Part shown: piece after piece, positions 2 to 19,424 of the stretch
Layout of the letters: each line of letters begins with the position of its first letter
Position numbering within the stretch: position 1 is the stretch's first letter
NCBI GenBank assembly: GCA_000238815.2
Contig: AFXB01000001.1
Span: 1 to 64,000 of the forward strand
DNA length: 64,000 bases
Direction: 5' to 3'
DNA from: SAR116 cluster alpha proteobacterium HIMB100
GTDB lineage: Bacteria; Pseudomonadota; Alphaproteobacteria; Puniceispirillales; Puniceispirillaceae
Translations under genes and position numbers: made by a program
The notes under the pieces: model-generated
Databases searched by the model: none
The model's input: the letters and a program-made list of their open reading frames with translations, nothing else
What the model was told of the DNA's origin: nothing

Positions 2-2092
2 TCTGTAGCTGCCAATGCCTTTAGCGATGGCGCAGCAAACGGCAATGCGGCTTCAGCCACCTTCAGCTGGAGTTATAACAGCCAGCCCTCTGTCAGCTTT
101 GCGAGTGCCAGCTCATCTGCGGTTGAGGCCAGCTCATCTGCCAGTGTTGCGCTCACCCTGTCACACAGCTATTTTCAGCCTGTCAGCGTCAGCTATGCCC
201 TCTCAGGCACGGCCACCGGTGGCGGCCTTGATTTTACGCATACGGGCAATTCTGTGACCATCCCTGCGGGCAGCACATCTGCAAGCATTACCATCAGCCC
301 GATTGTGGATGACAGCCTGGCAGAAGGGGATGAAACCCTTATTCTTACACTGTCTTCTCCTGTGAATGCCAGCTTCGGCGCGACCACCAGCCATACTTAC
401 ACCATCACTGACAATGATGGCACGCCGTCTTTCTCTATTGCTGATGCCACCACGCCGGATGAAAACGCGGCCGCACAGACCCTGACCGTTTCTTTGTCAC
501 CAGCCTCATCTGCCACAGTAACTGTTGATTATGCACTTGGTGGCGGAACGGCCACATCTGGGACTGATTTCACCTTTACGTCTGGCACCCTCAGCTTTGC
601 CGCAGGCGATACCAGCAAAACCATTTCTGTGTCGGTTCTTGCGGATTCTGATGTGGAAGGTGACGAGACAGTAATTATCTCTTTGTCTAACCCCACTGGC
701 GGAGCAACGATATCTGATAATTCCGGAACGCTGACAATTACCGATGATGATACAGCGCCAACCATTGATCCGAATCAGGCCATTGTGGATGACGCGATTT
801 TGGATACCCAGACCATCATTGCCAAACATGTCAGCAGTCAGGGCAAAAGCCTGCTTCATGCGTCCCAGAATTTGATCCAGACCAGTATTGACCATCTGAT
901 TGTCCGCACCCAGCTTCAGGCAAAACGCAGAAAATCAGGCGGCACAAGCACACAAACAGCCTCTCGTGCACCTTCTGCGGGCAGCCCAACATCTGGCAAT
1001 CAAAGCTCTGCCAATCAAAGCTCTGTTGGTCAAAGCTCTGGGGGGGCAGCATCTGGCAGCCCGCAACCCGCACCAGTACCATCAGCCAGCTTTACAGAAC
1101 AGGCCTCTCTTGCTCATCGTCTGGCCGATGCGGTGAAACTGCTCAGGGTCGATACGGATGATAAAGGTTATACAGGCGCACTTGATTTTGATTTATATGA
1201 GCCGCTTTTGGGCCAGAATTCTGCGCTGATCACAAAAATCACCGCCGCGTTCAGCGACCAGGATAACGGGCCAGAAACCAGTAATCTGTTGGCCAGCTTT
1301 GCTCTAGAGACAGAAAGTTCAGATGGCGACTCTGTTTATGGCCGGTTCCTGCATCTGTCTCAGACCAAGGCAGATTTCCGTTTCTCTCAGTCCGGCACAC
1401 AGGACAGCAAGGGCATTTCTGCAGGCGTCTACACGGTTTACAGCCCGAAGGTTGATCACTTGGTGACGGCCTTTATCTCGTTTGGTACCGCCCAGACAGA
1501 TCTTGATCTCACCGTATCCTCCGCTGCGGTAAAAGACAGCTTTACCAGCTTAAATGCACAAGCTGGCGTGTCTCTGGCCCGCACAATACATCGCCCGGGT
1601 ATGATGATGGTCTGGGAAATGGCTGCTGAAAGTCTGGTCAGCCGCCAGCAAAGCCGCTATGCCAGCGTTCTTGTCGGGGGCTCAAGCTACCGTGCACAAA
1701 TCAGTTCCCGCACAGTGACTGACACATCCGCCATTTTTACCCCGAAATTTATCTTTGATCTGCAGGATGCAGAAGATAAACAACCATCGAATCTTCAGCT
1801 GGCTCCCTCTGTCCGCTGTGGTTCGGGTACAGGCAGCTCCAGCTGTGGTTATGGTGTATCAGCCAGCCTCAGCCAGATGATGGCAGACAATGAAGGCCAT
1901 ACCTCATTTGGCCTGTCCGTTGACCGCTACCGTAACACAGATACGATCTCTTATTTCATTGATATCAACCGGTCTCTTTTGGGGCATAAGGGCATCCGGT
2001 TTGACACCCATTTAAAACAGCTTGTTACCGGCGGCGGATCTGGTGGCCGGCCGGAATATGCGATTAACTCAGTCGTCAGGCTGCCCTTATGA
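2..2092 (+). CDS. Calx-beta repeat surface protein, C-terminal part (5' end outside window)
   Basis: The reading frame is open from the first bases, so the gene starts upstream; 696 codons are visible. The first ~30 residues look like the end of a bacterial Ig-like repeat. Two Calx-beta-type repeats follow, each ending in the acidic EGDET...TITDND/TITDDD signature (about residues 40-140 and 150-250). Next come a helical stretch, a Ser/Gln/Gly-rich linker with a small repeat, and ~330 residues rich in alternating polar/hydrophobic segments that could form an outer-membrane beta-barrel or a secreted beta-solenoid. There is no typical C-terminal Phe/Trp. Calx-beta domains usually bind calcium in extracellular adhesins. 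Its TGA overlaps the next gene's ATG, so the two are probably co-translated. Adhesin or autotransporter function is inference. Confidence 0.7.
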   Translation, partial: SVAANAFSDGAANGNAASATFSWSYNSQPSVSFASASSSAVEASSSASVALTLSHSYFQPVSVSYALSGTATGGGLDFTHTGNSVTIPAGSTSASITISPIVDDSLAEGDETLILTLSSPVNASFGATTSHTYTITDNDGTPSFSIADATTPDENAAAQTLTVSLSPASSATVTVDYALGGGTATSGTDFTFTSGTLSFAAGDTSKTISVSVLADSDVEGDETVIISLSNPTGGATISDNSGTLTITDDDTAPTIDPNQAIVDDAILDTQTIIAKHVSSQGKSLLHASQNLIQTSIDHLIVRTQLQAKRRKSGGTSTQTASRAPSAGSPTSGNQSSANQSSVGQSSGGAASGSPQPAPVPSASFTEQASLAHRLADAVKLLRVDTDDKGYTGALDFDLYEPLLGQNSALITKITAAFSDQDNGPETSNLLASFALETESSDGDSVYGRFLHLSQTKADFRFSQSGTQDSKGISAGVYTVYSPKVDHLVTAFISFGTAQTDLDLTVSSAAVKDSFTSLNAQAGVSLARTIHRPGMMMVWEMAAESLVSRQQSRYASVLVGGSSYRAQISSRTVTDTSAIFTPKFIFDLQDAEDKQPSNLQLAPSVRCGSGTGSSSCGYGVSASLSQMMADNEGHTSFGLSVDRYRNTDTISYFIDINRSLLGHKGIRFDTHLKQLVTGGGSGGRPEYAINSVVRLPL
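995..1039 (+). repeat. three 15-bp tandem units in the linker of the Calx-beta protein
   Basis: Three in-frame 15-base units (995-1009, 1010-1024, 1025-1039) share the core CAAAGCTCT and encode a five-residue N/G-Q-S-S type repeat. The first two units differ at one base. This is a coding microsatellite in a flexible linker and could vary in copy number between strains. Confidence 0.7.
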
Positions 2093-12791: not shown

Positions 12792-13133
12792 ATGTCCGTG
12801 ACAAAACCAACTCAACTTCCACTTTTTTGTATTGGCGATATCGTCCGCCACCGGCTCTATCCGTTCCGGGGCGTGATTGTTGACGTTGATCCGGAATTTG
12901 ACAATACTGAAGAATGGTATGCGTCAATCCCCGAAGATGTGCGTCCTGACCGTGAACAGCCGTTCTATCATCTGCTGGCTGAAAATGCGGACAGCTATTA
13001 TTCAGCTTATGTCTCGCAGCAGAATTTGCTGTCTGATGATGAAAATGGTCCGGTTGGCCATCCCGATATTGAGGATGTGTTCACAGGTCTTGAAGAAGGC
13101 CGGTACCAGCTGCGTCCCGAAGCCTATAACTAG
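12792..13133 (+). CDS. hspQ: HspQ / YccV-like hemimethylated-DNA-binding heat-shock protein
   Basis: 113 residues. The motifs GDIVRHRLYPFRGVIVDVDPEF and PFYHLLAENADSYYSAYVSQQNL define the family. In enterobacteria HspQ modulates Lon specificity and binds hemimethylated oriC DNA (as YccV). It is placed 17 bases after rpmF and probably cotranscribed. In this lineage the DNA methylation role would involve CcrM-type GANTC sites, but no evidence for that is in the gene itself. Confidence 0.88.
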   Translation: MSVTKPTQLPLFCIGDIVRHRLYPFRGVIVDVDPEFDNTEEWYASIPEDVRPDREQPFYHLLAENADSYYSAYVSQQNLLSDDENGPVGHPDIEDVFTGLEEGRYQLRPEAYN

Positions 13134-13257
13134 CCCGGCTGCCGCACGGGTAGAGCCGGTCTGCCACCATCTGGAAAAACCTCTTTAATTCTGTCCATAC
13201 AGGCTGAAATAGTGCTGTGCAGACTTGTTTTTTGTGCGGCAGTCCTTATCTTCAGGT

Positions 13258-13282
13258 AAACAAGACTAATATAGTCCTGTTT
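13258..13282. promoter_or_regulatory. IscR type-1-like palindrome upstream of the suf operon
   Basis: A 25-base near-perfect palindrome with core GACTA-ATA-TAGTC (13264-13276) and flanks AAACA / TGTTT. The core matches the GACTR-WWW-YAGTC centre of the E. coli IscR type-1 site. It lies 61 bases before the first gene, an Rrf2/IscR-family regulator, and just upstream of a TATGAT/GATAAT -10-like box (13282-13290), so bound protein would cover the -35 region. Autoregulation of the suf operon by Fe-S-loaded regulator is the natural reading. Confidence 0.7.
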
Positions 13283-13297
13283 ATGATAATCATTCGC
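13279..13297. promoter_or_regulatory. Fur-box-like site overlapping the suf promoter
   Basis: GTTTATGATAATCATTCGC matches 15 of 19 positions of the classical Fur consensus, with an uninterrupted ATGATAATCATT core. It overlaps the right arm of the IscR-like palindrome and the likely -10 region. Iron-dependent repression of suf is inferred; many alphaproteobacterial Fur homologues sense manganese instead, which would change the interpretation. Confidence 0.55.
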
Positions 13298-13343
13298 AAT
13301 TACAGATGCTTGTGGTTGCCGGGCAGCATGGTGAAAAGAAGAT

Positions 13344-13799
13344 ATGCTTCGGTTAAACCGGATGACAGATTACGCCATTTTGGTGCTGGGCGTTCTGCAC
13401 AGCCGCCAGGGGGTGTGGTTGTCCAGCAGCCAGATTGCCGAAACAGCGCAACTGACGCAAGCGACCGCTGCAAAGCTGGTTAAGGCGTTGGTTGCAGCGG
13501 GTCTGGTGGAAACCCACCGCGGCACCCATGGCGGCTCTCAGCTGGCTCGTCCGGTCAGCCAGATCAGCATTGCTGAGGTGGTTGAGGCGATTGAAGGTCC
13601 GATTGCCCTGACCGCCTGTGTGGATGGTGCCGAAGAGCCCTGTTCGGTTCAGCAGGGTTGTTTTATGGGCGGGAATTGGAACCGGGTGAATAACGCGCTG
13701 CGCGGCGCGTTGTCATCTGTCAGCCTGGCAGATTTATTTGATCCGGCCAGCCTGTTTCCCGAACCATCATCCGGGCAACAGAGCAGATCAGACATATAA
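13344..13799 (+). CDS. Rrf2/IscR-family regulator of the SUF operon
   Basis: 151 residues. The N-terminal winged HTH (TDYAILVLGVLHS...SSSQIAETAQLTQATAAKLVKAL) is that of Rrf2 proteins. Three Cys (C-x7-C-x5-C at about 93-107) are placed to ligate an Fe-S cluster, as in IscR. The closest named group is the SUF-system assembly regulator. It is the first gene of the suf cluster and sits under the IscR-like palindrome, so feedback control by cluster status is expected. The start fits the family pattern MLRLNRMTDYA. Confidence 0.88.
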   Translation: MLRLNRMTDYAILVLGVLHSRQGVWLSSSQIAETAQLTQATAAKLVKALVAAGLVETHRGTHGGSQLARPVSQISIAEVVEAIEGPIALTACVDGAEEPCSVQQGCFMGGNWNRVNNALRGALSSVSLADLFDPASLFPEPSSGQQSRSDI

Positions 13800-13841: not shown

Positions 13842-15293
13842 ATGGCAGCGACAGTTGAGACTATTGAAGCGGTTGAACAGGCGACCGGTGTCTATAAATA
13901 TGGCTTTGTGACCGATATTGAGACCGAAAAGGCCCCAAAAGGCTTGTCGGAAGATATCATTCGTTTCATCTCGGCAAAGAAAGACGAGCCTGAATGGATG
14001 CTGGACTGGCGGCTGAAGGCGTATCGTTATTGGCTGAAGATGGAGTCGCCGGATTGGGCCAAGCTGAATATTCCGCCGATTGACTATAATGATATCTATT
14101 ATTATGCCGCGCCGAAAACAGCTGAAGCTCCTAAATCACTTGATGAGGTGGATCCAGAGCTGCTGCGGACATATGAAAAGCTGGGCATTCCGCTGAATGA
14201 ACAAAAAATGCTGGCCGGTGTGGCTGTTGACGCAGTGTTTGATTCAGTGTCTGTTGCGACCACCTTTCGCGAGGAGCTGGCCAAGGTCGGGGTGATTTTC
14301 TGCCCGATCTCAGAAGCGATCCGTGAATATCCTGATTTGGTGCGCAAATATATGGGGTCTGTTGTACCAGTCTCGGATAATTATTTTTCAGCGCTGAATT
14401 CGGCTGTGTTTACCGATGGTTCATTTGTCTATATCCCGAAAGGGGTGCGCTGCCCGATGGAGCTGTCCACTTACTTCCGGATTAATGAAAAAAATACGGG
14501 CCAGTTTGAACGCACGCTGATCATTGCCGAAGACAGCTCTTATGTCTCTTATCTCGAAGGCTGTACCGCGCCTCAGCGTGATGAAAACCAGCTGCATGCC
14601 GCGGTGGTTGAGCTGGTCGCGCAAACAGATGCAGAGATTAAATATTCCACCGTCCAGAACTGGTATCCTGGTGATGAAACCGGCAAGGGCGGGATTTATA
14701 ATTTCGTAACCAAGCGCGGGGCCTGCCGTGGCGATCGGTCAAAAATTTCCTGGACCCAGGTGGAAACAGGCTCAGCCATCACCTGGAAATATCCGTCTTG
14801 TGTGCTGAAAGGCAAAGATTCGGTTGGCGAATTTTATTCCGTGGCGGTCACCAACGGAGCTCAGCAGGCAGATACCGGAACCAAAATGATCCATTTGGGT
14901 GAGGGCTCACGCTCGACCATTATTTCCAAGGGGATTTCGGCGGGTAAGTCAAATAACACTTATCGCGGCCTTGTCGAAATGAATAAGGGGGCGGGAAACG
15001 CCCGCAACTTTACCCAGTGTGATTCGCTTCTGGTGGGTGATACCTGCGGGGCGCATACAGTGCCATATATGGTCTCGCGCAATCCGTCTGCAAAAATTGA
15101 ACATGAAGCAACCACCTCGCGGATTTCAGAAGATCAGCTGTTTTACTGTCTGCAGCGGGGTCTGGATGAAGAAGAGGCCGTCTCCCTGATTGTGAATGGC
15201 TTCTGTAAAGAAGTGATGAAAGAACTGCCTATGGAATTCGCTGTAGAGGCGCAAAAGCTGATTGGAATCAGCCTTGAAGGCTCAGTCGGTTAA
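13842..15293 (+). CDS. sufB: Fe-S cluster scaffold SufB
   Basis: 483 residues, normal for SufB. SufB forms the SufBC2D scaffold on which [4Fe-4S] clusters are built from SufS sulfur. Characteristic segments are [30 protein letters not shown] and [28 protein letters not shown], with the C-terminal [33 protein letters not shown] positions a ribosome-binding site 9 bases before the ATG. Second gene of the suf operon. Confidence 0.97.
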
Positions 15294-15313: not shown

Positions 15314-16055
<742 letters not shown>

Positions 16056-16066
<11 letters not shown>

Positions 16067-17267
16067 TACACATTACAGCAGCTGGGCTGACCGACAGGCG
16101 GCAGCCCGGTCTTATCTTGACGATGTGAACTGGCCAGAGGGCAAGACTGAGGCCTGGACATTCACATCTCTGTCACATTTATCTCAAACCACGCTTCAGG
16201 CACCTGCTGCTGCACCAGTCAGTGATCCTGTATCTGGTCTTGCGGGCGCATCGGTTCACTTTACCGCTGGCCTGGCTCCTGATCTGGCCAGCCTGTCTCT
16301 GGCTGACGGAATTGTGGCCAGCGATATTTCTGCTGATGATGAGGCCTGCCGGCACGCCTTTGACTTACTGCCGGACCGTCATCATCTGACCGCGCTGTCT
16401 GCCAGCCGCCAGACCTCAGCTGTCCGGATCAGCATTGCGGCAGATACAAAGGTTGATACCCCGCTTATTCTTCACTTTGCCGGGGGAAAGGCGGGCGAGG
16501 CCACACACCCGTTTGTGTTTATTGATCTGGCTGATGGGGCACATCTTAACCTTGCTGAACTTCATCAGGGGGCGGCCAGCTTGTCACAGCCGTTGATCCT
16601 TGTCCGGTTGGGTGCAGATGCGCGCCTGGACCACATCAAATTTCAGGATGAGGGTGAACAGACGACACATTTAGGGCTGACGTTGTTCCGGCTTGATCAC
16701 CAGGCAAATATAAACAGCTTTGCTGTCTCCAAAGGGGGCCAGATGGCGCGGATGGAAACACATTGTTTCTTTGCTGCCTCTGATGCTGAAGCGGCAATGT
16801 CCGCTGTTTATCTGGGCCAGGGCAGCCAGCATCATGACATCACCACTGTGGTCAGTCACGAGATGCGCGATTGTGCCTCTCGCCAGTTGATTCGCGGCGT
16901 ACTTGATGACAAAGCGCGTGGCGTGTTTCAGGGGCGTGTGCGTGTGGCCCCTGATGCCCAGAAAACAGACGGTCAGCAGATGAGCCGGGCCTTGCTTTTG
17001 TCCCGCGATGCAGAGGCAGATGCCAAGCCAGAGCTTGAAATCTTCGCTGATGATGTGGTCTGCAGCCATGGTGCAACCGTGGGTGAACTTGATGAAACGC
17101 TGCTGTTTTACCTGAAAAGCCGTGGCATTGGCGAAAAACAGGCACGGACCATGCTGATTGATGCCTTTCTTGTCGATACGCTGGAGGAAATCAGCTACCC
17201 GCCTTTTGCCGAATTTTTGCGTGATAAGGTCTCTGGCTGGACCGCCAGCCAGACCGGCGCAAAATAA
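16056..17267 (+). CDS. sufD: Fe-S assembly protein SufD
   Basis: 403 residues from the ATG at 16056, which overlaps sufC by 11 bases. A longer frame from 16002 would lie wholly inside sufC coding sequence. It is a right-handed beta-helix paralogue of SufB: GKTEAWTFTSL near the start, EMRDCASRQLIRGVLDDKARGVFQGRV in the core and CSHGATVGELDETLLFYLKSRG with the conserved His near the end. It pairs with SufB in the scaffold. Confidence 0.95.
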
Positions 17268-17294: not shown

Positions 17295-18554
17295 ATGAGC
17301 ATTGAGATGACAGATACGGCCCTACACCAGACACCAGGCTTTGATGCTGCTGAAATCCGGGCCCAGTTTCCGATCCTGAACCAACAGGTCAATGGCAAGC
17401 CACTGGTCTATCTGGATTCAGCGGCCTCTGCCCAGAAACCGCAACTGGTTCTGGATACGCTGGCCTCTGCCTACAGCCAGACCTATGCAAATGTGCATCG
17501 TGGTCTGCATTATTTGTCTGAAGCGTCAACAGACGCTTATGAAGCGGTACGGGGCAAGGTGGCCCGACTTATCGGCGCGCGGTCTGAATCAGAAGTGGTC
17601 TTTACCTCTGGCGCGACAATGGCCTTGAACCTGATTGCGCAGTGTTATGGCAACACCTATTTGTCTGAAGGGGACGAGGTTTTGATCTCGGTGGCTGATC
17701 ATCACGCCAATATTGTGCCCTGGCATCTTTTGGGCGGGCGTGTGGGGGCAAAGACCATTGCCGCTCCGGTTGATGCTGACGGCAGCTTTAATATGGACAG
17801 CTTTAAAGCGCATATTTCGCCGCGCACAAAGATCATCTCCATTCCGCATGTCTCTAATGTGTTGGGCACTGTATTTCCGGTTGCTGAAATTGCGGCTGTT
17901 GCGCATGAAAATGGGGCGGTCTGTGTTGTTGATGGCTGTCAGGGGGTCACGCATCTGCCTGTTGATGTGGCTGAACTGGGCTGTGATTTTTATGTCTTCT
18001 CAGGCCACAAACTCTATGGGCCGAGCGGCATTGGTGTATGCTGGGGCCGGGCAGAGATTTGGGCAGAACTGCCGCCATTCCTGGGTGGCGGGGATATGAT
18101 CGATGATGTGGATGCTGACCGGTCAACCTATGCTGAACCGCCCTTGCGGTTTGAAGCAGGTACACCGCCAATTGCTGAATGTATCGGCCTTGGCGCGGCG
18201 GTTGATTTTGTCCAGCAGATCGGTATGGCCAATTTGCGGGATCATGAAATGGATATGCTACGCTATGGGCACCAGCGTCTGGCATCTGTCAAGGGGCTGA
18301 ACTTCATTGGCACGGCCGCGGGTAAATCAGGGGTGATTTCCTTTACGCTTGACGCTGCACATCCGCATGATATTTCCACGCTGATTGATCAGGATGGCGT
18401 GGCCATTCGTGCTGGCCATCACTGTGCGCAGCCCCTGATGAAATTTTACGGGCTGAGCTCTACCGCCCGCGCCTCTGTCGGGGTCTATACGCAAACCTCT
18501 GATTTTGACGCATTGGCAGACGCGCTTGAAAAAGTTAACCGGATTTTCAGCTGA
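17295..18554 (+). CDS. sufS: SufS-type cysteine desulfurase
   Basis: 419 residues, PLP-dependent class V fold. The PLP Lys is in FYVFSGHKLYGPSGIG and the persulfide-forming Cys in RAGHHCAQPLMKFYG, marking group II (SufS). It removes sulfur from cysteine for cluster assembly. No SufE or SufU gene is in the window, so the sulfur relay partner is elsewhere, unless SufT or another protein substitutes. An internal ATG at 17310 is an alternative start. Confidence 0.96.
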   Translation: MSIEMTDTALHQTPGFDAAEIRAQFPILNQQVNGKPLVYLDSAASAQKPQLVLDTLASAYSQTYANVHRGLHYLSEASTDAYEAVRGKVARLIGARSESEVVFTSGATMALNLIAQCYGNTYLSEGDEVLISVADHHANIVPWHLLGGRVGAKTIAAPVDADGSFNMDSFKAHISPRTKIISIPHVSNVLGTVFPVAEIAAVAHENGAVCVVDGCQGVTHLPVDVAELGCDFYVFSGHKLYGPSGIGVCWGRAEIWAELPPFLGGGDMIDDVDADRSTYAEPPLRFEAGTPPIAECIGLGAAVDFVQQIGMANLRDHEMDMLRYGHQRLASVKGLNFIGTAAGKSGVISFTLDAAHPHDISTLIDQDGVAIRAGHHCAQPLMKFYGLSSTARASVGVYTQTSDFDALADALEKVNRIFS

Positions 18555-18572: not shown

Positions 18573-19010
18573 ATGACCGGCACATCCTCATCTCCTGGCA
18601 AGGCTTTCGCCGAAGACGGGCCGTCTTTAGCCGATTTCCTGCCTGACACCTCATCTGGCTACACCGCCTATGCAGGTACAGCTCACGGCGAAGGGACGGG
18701 CGCGACCCTTTCAGAAGACGCGGTCGTCACCGCCTTGAAAACGGTGAAGGATCCTGAAATTCCGGTCAATATCTATGATTTGGGACTGATCTATGAGGTT
18801 CTGCGGCATGAAGATGGTAATGTTGATATCAGCATGTCCTTAACCGCACCTGGCTGTCCTGTTGCTGGCGAGATGCCGGCACAGGTCGCAGAAGCTGTGG
18901 CGGCTGTGGAGGGGGCGGGCCGCATTGCGGTTACGCTGGTCTGGGAGCCGGCCTGGACACCAGATCGGATGAGCGAAGATGCCAAACTGGCTCTTGATTA
19001 CGGGTTTTAA
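18573..19010 (+). CDS. sufT: SufT (DUF59/MIP18-type Fe-S maturation factor)
   Basis: 145 residues. A ~45-residue Ser/Gly-rich N-terminal extension precedes the MIP18 domain with VKDPEIPVNIYDLGLIYEV and the Cys motif SLTAPGCPVAGEMP. The domain ends in VTLVWEPAWTPDRMSEDAKLALDYGF, typical of SufT. The family aids [4Fe-4S] insertion, notably into aconitase and lipoate synthase. It is 18 bases after sufS. Confidence 0.93.
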   Translation: MTGTSSSPGKAFAEDGPSLADFLPDTSSGYTAYAGTAHGEGTGATLSEDAVVTALKTVKDPEIPVNIYDLGLIYEVLRHEDGNVDISMSLTAPGCPVAGEMPAQVAEAVAAVEGAGRIAVTLVWEPAWTPDRMSEDAKLALDYGF

Positions 19011-19046: not shown

Positions 19047-19424
19047 ATGACACAGACTGACCAGAATACAACAACGCCTTTCGGCACAGGCCAGCCTATC
19101 CTGACCTTAACGGATGCGGCAGCAGCACAGGCGCGTAAATTAATGGGCAAGGCAGATAGCGAGGCAATTGGCCTTCGTGTCGGCATTAAAACAGCTGGCT
19201 GTTCCGGCTTGCAATATCAGGTAGAATTCGCCAAAGACCAAAAGCCTTTCGAAGATAAAATCGAAGATAAAGGCGTGACCATTTTTATCGATCCTGCCGC
19301 GGTGATGTTCATTATCGGCTCTGAAATGGATTGGGCAGAAGATAAATTTGCCTCATCTTTCACCTTTACCAACCCCAATGAAACCGCGCGTTGCGGCTGT
19401 GGGGAGAGCTTTACAGTCTCCTAG
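19047..19424 (+). CDS. sufA: A-type Fe-S carrier SufA/ErpA
   Basis: 125 residues of the HesB/IscA family. The three ligand Cys are in KTAGCSGLQYQVEF and the C-terminal RCGCGESF. It accepts clusters from SufBCD and delivers them to targets. AGGAG lies 9 bases before the ATG. Its stop is directly followed by the exporter's ATG, with no gap. Confidence 0.93.
   Translation: MTQTDQNTTTPFGTGQPILTLTDAAAAQARKLMGKADSEAIGLRVGIKTAGCSGLQYQVEFAKDQKPFEDKIEDKGVTIFIDPAAVMFIIGSEMDWAEDKFASSFTFTNPNETARCGCGESFTVS

Follow-up and report, generated by a model that had tools for sequence, protein, structure and literature searches.

The stretch 13258-13297 of the SAR116 bacterium HIMB100, located between an hspQ-like gene and the gene of a 151-aa Rrf2 protein, carries two conserved sites upstream of the suf operon, and their reading as regulatory elements, the first serving an Fe-S regulator of the Rrf2 type and the second serving Fur, is well supported by sequence comparison. 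Dual repression of suf by these two proteins, with probable exclusion of one by the other, appears to be the best explanation of the whole, and we consider it likely. The palindrome and the box at suf are beyond chance: their conservation over 39 upstream regions in 11 genera settles this point.

Results

Organization of the suf operon

In the window, that is, the whole 64-kb stretch of DNA analysed, the operon runs in the order Rrf2 regulator gene, sufB, sufC, sufD, sufS, SufT-like gene and A-type carrier gene (Table 1). A reading of this DNA made from its letters alone, referred to below as the sequence-only reading, had named the first gene as that of an Rrf2 regulator, and this is correct. 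The protein passes the TIGR02944 model of SUF system regulators (123.2 bits, cut-off 110.65) and its gene context agrees with that type, the regulator gene standing first, before sufB. The models of IscR proper are failed (TIGR02010, 58.2 vs 207.55; PRK10857, 37.3 vs 275). The suf regulator is the only PF02082 match found in the 2.46-Mb genome.

Table 1. Coordinates of the suf locus in the window and, in the numbering of its own locus, of the fbpA-type locus of the same genome
Feature	Position	Strand	Remark
hspQ-like gene	12792-13133		precedes the stretch 13258-13297
Probable -35 CTTGTT	13224..13229	+	by conservation
Probable -10 TATCTT	13247..13252	+	17 bp after the -35
25-bp palindrome AAACAAGACTA-ATA-TAGTCCTGTTT	13258..13282	no strand	proposed operator of the Rrf2 regulator
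Palindrome core GACTAATATAGTC (GAC-N7-GTC; GACTA-ATA-TAGTC)	13264..13276	no strand	
Possible longer Fur site, TGTTTAT-G-ATAATCA + TGATAAT-C-ATTCGCA	13278..13298		two overlapping 7-1-7 sites 6 bp apart
Fur box TGATAATCATTCGCA = TGATAAT-C-ATTCGCA (7-1-7)	13284..13298	no strand	
Rrf2 regulator, SUF system regulator type (TIGR02944)	13344..13799	+	Cys92, Cys100, Cys106
sufB	13842..15293	+	
sufC	15314..16066	+	
sufD	16002..17267	+	open frame; true start probably later
sufS	17295..18554	+	
SUF-associated, SufT-like protein	18573..19010	+	TIGR02945 134.2 bits, below the cut-off of 143.4
A-type carrier (SufA/IscA family)	19047..19424	+	TIGR00049 above cut-off; SufA and IscA models below theirs
fbpA-type locus L033 (C10), own genome	gene 339-1361	-	Fur boxes and palindrome at about 1469-1545

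The palindrome

The palindrome GACTA-ATA-TAGTC of the sequence-only reading is present letter for letter as the core given in Table 1. Its arms extend to the 25-mer AAACAAGACTAATATAGTCCTGTTT, in which 10 of the 11 arm positions are paired, and the variant AATCAgGACTAAATTGGTCtTGATT is found in some relatives. Left and right outer arms agree at 119 of 174 positions in 29 distinct rows, against a shuffle mean of 109.6 (p 0.013, a value which, like the column information scores below, ignores kinship among the rows). The exact palindrome GACTANNNTAGTC occurs only once in the genome, against 15 occurrences of the reversed pattern; it is thus rare, not enriched.

The GAC-N7-GTC core with AT-rich flanks is that of E. 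coli type I IscR sites and, lying upstream of suf, also that of RisR-type operators. The term 'IscR type-1-like' used in the sequence-only reading is consequently justified for the core. It does not extend to membership, because the regulator fails TIGR02010 and the half-sites are AAGAC/AGGAC instead of the E. coli TTGAC/CCGAC. Nor is this a type II IscR site at a -35: CCxYA halves are lacking, and the GAC-N7-GTC site lies downstream of the probable -10. An RNA hairpin formed by the palindrome was set aside, since a C stands opposite an A at core positions 4 and 10 (for example in GACCAATATAGTC, L003), so that the DNA half-sites are kept and the RNA pair is not.

The Fur box

The 19-bp sequence GTTTATGATAATCATTCGC (13279-13297) matches the Fur consensus at 15 of 19 positions, exactly as first read, and is the best such match in the window. 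When 64-kb sequences were simulated with a first-order Markov model, 2 of 12 contained an equally good match, and the match alone is therefore weak evidence. The four bases said to be shared by the two elements are indeed common to the 25-mer palindrome and the 19-bp match (GTTT, 13279-13282). The 15-bp box, which starts at 13284 with a spacing of 7 bp from the core (13264-13276), fits a TGATAAT-N-ATTATCA-like inverted repeat at 12 of 14 arm letters and is asymmetric in its TTCGCA half. A longer, two-site Fur element, weaker than the 15-mer, may possibly be present (Table 1); its left heptamer, TGATTAT or TGTTTAT, is found in 22 of the 35 box-bearing upstreams.

Among the proteins encoded by the genome are a Fur-like one, whose best match of solved structure is the ferric uptake regulation protein 5fd5 (E=2e-46), and Irr-like and Zur-like ones, the Irr-like protein scoring 142.2 bits against a cut-off of 150. 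The Irr box differs from the suf Fur box, and Irr was rejected as its reader for this reason.

Position of the probable promoter

The sequence-only reading had placed both sites over a TATGAT-like -10. These letters are present (13282-13287), but they are kept in only 26 of the 35 box-bearing upstreams and replaced in 9, no -35 partner is evident, and their role as the working -10 is probably wrong. TATGAT was set aside in favour of a better-conserved promoter further upstream (13224-13252): the conserved suf promoter is probably CTTGTT-17-TATCTT, which precedes both sites. Family f1, to which HIMB100 belongs, has 37 palindrome-bearing upstreams that are long enough to show the promoter columns. 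Counted back from the palindrome core, 36 of them have CTTG or TTGA at -39 to -42 (exception L016), and likewise 36 have a hexamer starting with TA at -16 to -18 (exception L008, CATCTA). These are column counts; in some rows a search with a fixed consensus settled on different hexamers. In family f2 the pair recurs before suf with a small shift, CTTGA or CTTGC standing at -36 to -41 in 9/9 upstreams. Information amounts to 0.7 to 2 bits in the columns covering both elements (-6 to 35) and to 0.02 to 0.18 in those of the spacer between -35 and -10 (-30 to -20). An E. coli-type promoter scan reported neither CTTGTT-17-TATCTT nor TATGAT, so that the promoter call rests on conservation. With the promoter in its upstream position, palindrome and Fur box would surround the transcription start and not lie on the -10.

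Conservation of the two sites

The regulator protein was searched in 151 genomes, including that of HIMB100, and matches were obtained in 101. Upstream regions were read for 70 of the matches, those left out being mostly weak or from family f4; one (L109, 49 bp) was dropped as too short, leaving 69. Conservation upstream of suf in relatives, the point on which the sequence-only reading had been ready to be refuted, was confirmed, a GACY-N5-RGTC palindrome being present in 38 of the 39 readable upstreams of family f1. The pattern also recovered the palindrome in 9/9 upstreams of family f2, where the promoter is kept and the Fur box is absent. The exact 15-mer was found in 35 of the 39 f1 upstreams; the remaining four have no box (G016, G036) or a degenerate one (G057, G009). 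On the regulator tree, rooted by midpoint only and with the degenerate boxes of G057 and G009 scored as present, the distribution of the box requires three changes; in our reading it was gained once and lost twice, in G036 and G016.

Within family f1 the gap between palindrome and box is 7 bp, genus g3 with 6 bp being the exception, which corresponds to a centre-to-centre distance of 21 bp (20 in g3). A combined, slightly looser pattern gave 36 matches in 35 of the 151 genomes (own included) and none for the reversed control; 35 of the matches are at suf and one is at another locus of the HIMB100 genome. Across 84,980 GTDB species the combined pattern was found in 41 stretches, 31 of them apparently in family f1. 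A wider taxonomic spread of the composite was rejected, as 9 of the 10 stretches from outside SAR116 lie inside open reading frames, several of these in one shared frame reading PNDYQVGQTGKV, and one lies between frames (L242). The relatives carrying the pair are SAR116 bacteria.

Assignment of the palindrome to the Rrf2 regulator

Three lines of evidence, namely joint loss, a joint change of recognition helix and half-site, and kept cysteines, indicate that the palindrome is the putative operator of the Rrf2 gene product. Among the 69 aligned regulator proteins, Cys92 and Cys106 are kept in all 69 and Cys100 in 67, as expected of putative Fe-S ligands. In genus g8, a regulator match is absent from 9/10 genomes. 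Neither palindrome nor box was found in the 903 bp before sufB in the 6/6 regulator-less g8 genomes that could be read; of the other three, two (G043, G046) yielded no sufB and in one (G052) the sequence begins at the end of a contig. The remaining g8 genome, G036, keeps both the regulator gene and the palindrome. In family f4, AGTAC-N7-GTACT was detected in 14/16 upstreams, exactly the 14 whose regulator has the helix LYTVQK (L115, L117, L118, L122, L124, L126-L128, L130 and L133-L137), all of one genus and hence not independent. This rule is weakened by G017 (L017/L180), which has GTAC-N7-GTAC at suf with an f1-type and not an f4-like helix; its Fur box is kept and its fbpA site remains GAC-N7-GTC.

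Several further observations were made on these loci. The half-site GTAC for GGAC in f4, found 28-40 bp before the regulator gene, is a natural change of Rrf2 specificity. In family f3, TTAGA-N5-TCTAA is present in 3/3 upstreams; all three (L110, L119, L123) carry TTTAGA-N5-TCTAAA in the promoter region, which we take to be reminiscent of an Irr box rather than of an Rrf2 site. The middle cysteine, Cys100, is lost in L105 and L131, which would be expected to affect cluster binding. Finally, L182-L187 of genus g8 lack the Rrf2 gene ahead of sufB, together with the palindrome and the Fur box, and L183 retains a weak 16-residue match to the end of the regulator (E=0.006), perhaps a remnant.

The two sites at fbpA and other iron-transport genes

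Assignment of the suf box to Fur is well supported by its recurrence at iron-uptake genes in this lineage. A count over 61 genomes gave 30 exact copies of the 15-mer, spread over 28 of them; 26 are at suf, and all 4 copies outside suf lie beside ferric-transporter-type genes (G067, G013, G015, G033). In G067 it lies upstream of fbpA. In G033 and G013 it precedes the gene of a 547-aa permease, in a space common with a divergent TerC gene, and in G015 it is found where a contig ends, ahead of the first part of a permease gene that seems to be the same one. The best solved match of the G033 permease is the iron ABC transporter permease 9j4r (E=9.4e-29), and FbpA was identified through the solved ferric-binding protein 1q35 (E=2e-77); the curated NCBIfam models named neither fbpA nor the permease above cut-off. 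Among 30 fbpA loci, the best-scoring from 56 genomes with a match (one of them, L263, only 60 bp long), 22 have Fur boxes upstream with at most one mismatch to the half-site set. The exact suf-type Fur box between an iron-permease-type gene and a divergent TerC-family gene occurs in genera g9 and g7 (position 1967 in L277, 2032 in L278 and 53 in L276), L278 having a second Fur-like box nearby.

In HIMB100 itself, the upstream region of fbpA reads GACTAAAACAGTC, 16 bp, TGATAATCATTCTCA, then TGAGAATGATTCGCA. Mismatch-free TGMKAATNATTMKCA boxes number three in the genome, one at suf and two at fbpA; seven sites have one mismatch, against three for the control. The genome search for the palindrome that the sequence-only reading had proposed was run: the exact form has its single copy at suf, and the looser form GACYRNNNYRGTC gave 36 palindromes, of which 32 lie in frames of at least 200 aa and 2 in short frames. 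The two others, at suf and fbpA, are the only ones that are clearly intergenic. A larger palindrome regulon in this genome was rejected on account of the 32 in long frames. The short frames (96 aa in L086 and 74 aa in L096) are maybe not genes, and a further target among them is possible; under a loose frame rule the suf site itself falls in an 88-aa frame, taken as spurious.

The strict palindrome is present at fbpA in 4/30 loci (own genome, G017, G011, G021) and degenerate forms occur in G006 and G007; between it and the Fur box lie 16 to 47 bp, depending on the locus. Judged by eye, the palindromes of G000 and G006 are located upstream of a TTGAC-like -35 of fbpA, a position that would suit activation.

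Discussion

Proposed mechanism

We propose that suf is transcribed from the promoter at 13224-13252, with a start near 13259 as suggested by the conserved spacing. The three-cysteine Rrf2 protein would bind GAC-N7-GTC at about -2 to +23 and block initiation; to judge from its family and from M. xanthus RisR, the form bound is most likely the Fe-S-loaded one. Iron-loaded Fur would bind TGATAATCATTCGCA at about +25 to +39 and block initiation or early elongation. With outer arms that touch and a centre spacing of 21 bp, the two dimers are unlikely to occupy their sites fully at the same time, and each regulator should be able to repress alone. A sufficient supply of iron or of Fe-S clusters would thus be enough to keep the operon silent, and a shortage of both would be needed to open it fully. 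Points that weigh against this mechanism are the asymmetry of the Fur box, the four f1 upstreams without its exact form, the lack of a promoter in the E. coli-type scan, the small number of fbpA loci with the palindrome and the related Caulobacter case described below.

We infer binding, ligand states, direction of regulation and exclusion alike. Dual repression is likely by analogy with holo-RisR, with promoters carrying type I IscR sites and with Fe-Fur of E. coli. Mutually exclusive binding, which the sequence-only reading had predicted, is plausible, given how near the sites are to each other: protection of about 30 bp around 13270 would extend to 13285, inside the Fur box, making exclusion probable. 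On the other hand, the cores are 7 bp apart and do not overlap, so that simultaneous binding is possible, and the 21-bp centre spacing equally allows contact between the two proteins.

Such contact is the basis of another explanation, in which the Rrf2 protein and Fur sit side by side across two helical turns and act as one joint repressor. The fixed centre distance, 21 bp or 20 bp in g3, suggests contact, even if the gap between the two kinds of site at fbpA is variable. We regard this explanation as unlikely without being far-fetched: a gap shorter by 1 bp is tolerated in g3, the outer arm TGATT/TGTTT would have to serve both sites, and a RisR-like protein, protecting about 30 bp, would cover part of the Fur site (PMC9973013). 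Slightly less probable still is a single composite operator, with Fur and the Rrf2 protein separated by two helical turns, bound to the same side of the DNA and interacting by cooperation or ordered displacement. If it were true, the suf promoter of a whole marine family would read iron and Fe-S supply as a single signal, and the same pair of regulators, with looser spacing, would tie iron import (fbpA) to Fe-S status.

The palindrome could instead be the sole repressing operator, the Fur box serving activation or anti-repression, if Fe-Fur drives the Rrf2 repressor off the DNA. There is precedent for activation of iron-using genes by Fe-Fur, as at acn of Caulobacter (PMC11475020), and competition with a repressor needs no contact with RNA polymerase. 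This alternative is nevertheless improbable, since iron-replete cells should need less suf and not more, and boxes of the same type lie in the promoter region of fbpA, as in ordinary Fur repression. A role of the Fur-like box in the core promoter, which would include the TATGAT -10 of the sequence-only reading, or as a leader signal could account for the 26 of 35 upstreams that keep TATGAT; it does not account for the conservation of the whole 15-mer, with letters outside the -10, for the f2 upstreams with palindrome and promoter and no box (9/9), or for the same 15-mer beside ferric-transporter-type genes in four genomes, and we hold it to be very improbable. An unremarkable palindrome next to an AT-rich Fur match, brought together by chance, is favoured by the 2 of 12 simulated sequences that contained as good a match. 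Against it stand the conserved upstreams, the loss of the sites with the regulator gene and the comparison of 35 of 151 genomes with zero matches for the reversed control, and chance was rejected as having practically no probability. We retain, as likely, repression of suf by both regulators, each at its own site.

Comparison with known systems

In E. coli, the suf promoter responds both to Fur and to an Fe-S regulator of the Rrf2 family (PMC8593673, PMC12594620), which is the likeness between E. coli sufA and the SAR116 operon, and Fe-Fur represses suf (PMC8593673). At sufA, apo-IscR activates from a type II site at the -35; the type I half-sites of E. coli IscR are TTGAC/CCGAC, and promoters with known type I sites are repressed (PMC8561392). 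In SAR116, by contrast, a GAC-N7-GTC site surrounds the probable start, and the first gene of the operon itself encodes the regulator, a protein of the TIGR02944 type. The type of the site, where it lies, the family of the regulator and the order of the genes all set the SAR116 arrangement apart from that of E. coli.

In M. xanthus, holo-RisR acts as repressor of suf at a GAC-N7-GTC operator, where it protects about 30 bp (PMC9973013). The RisR-sufBCDSUT system resembles that of SAR116 in having the Rrf2 gene first in the suf operon and GAC-N7-GTC with AT-rich flanks; the likeness is drawn from operator and gene order, and no Fur site is named in the excerpt of that paper (PMC9973013).

Caulobacter crescentus is likewise an alphaproteobacterium, and its IscR and Fur regulons overlap. 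Its ribD, which has a putative Fur site in the spacer of the -35 and -10 elements and an IscR motif further upstream (PMC11475020), is much like the fbpA promoter of HIMB100. Its isc-suf operon is reported not to be directly regulated by Fur (PMC11475020), whereas SAR116 suf has a predicted Fur box. Rhodobacter sphaeroides has an IscR box (Iron-Rhodo-box), GACTATTTCTGTCGG, near the start of the isc-suf promoter P3, and an IscR site near the afuA promoter; no Fur or Mur box is reported near P3, and the effect of Fur/Mur was judged indirect (PMC6956336, PMC4618611). Its IscR has a single cysteine, unlike the three-cysteine SAR116 regulator.

The SAR116 pair is a refinement of the known dual control of suf by Fur and an Rrf2 protein and not a new kind of control. 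Dual control of suf seems patchy in Alphaproteobacteria, and the SAR116 form seems to resemble that of E. coli in logic, not in parts. Among the papers listed on SAR116, Puniceispirillum, iron/Fur, IscR and suf, no title or beginning of an abstract describes the element; an earlier prediction is possible, and the main comparative study is Rodionov et al. 2006.

The half-site change that accompanies the helix, together with the near-fixed spacing, offers ready-made tests of DNA recognition by Rrf2 proteins. SAR116 bacteria occur throughout the surface sea water, and ferric transport by afuABC is predicted to be what they chiefly depend on (PMC12262181). In these organisms, the predicted switch, one operon read by two sensors, would tie Fe-S assembly to iron supply, with a further link to the ferric transporter.
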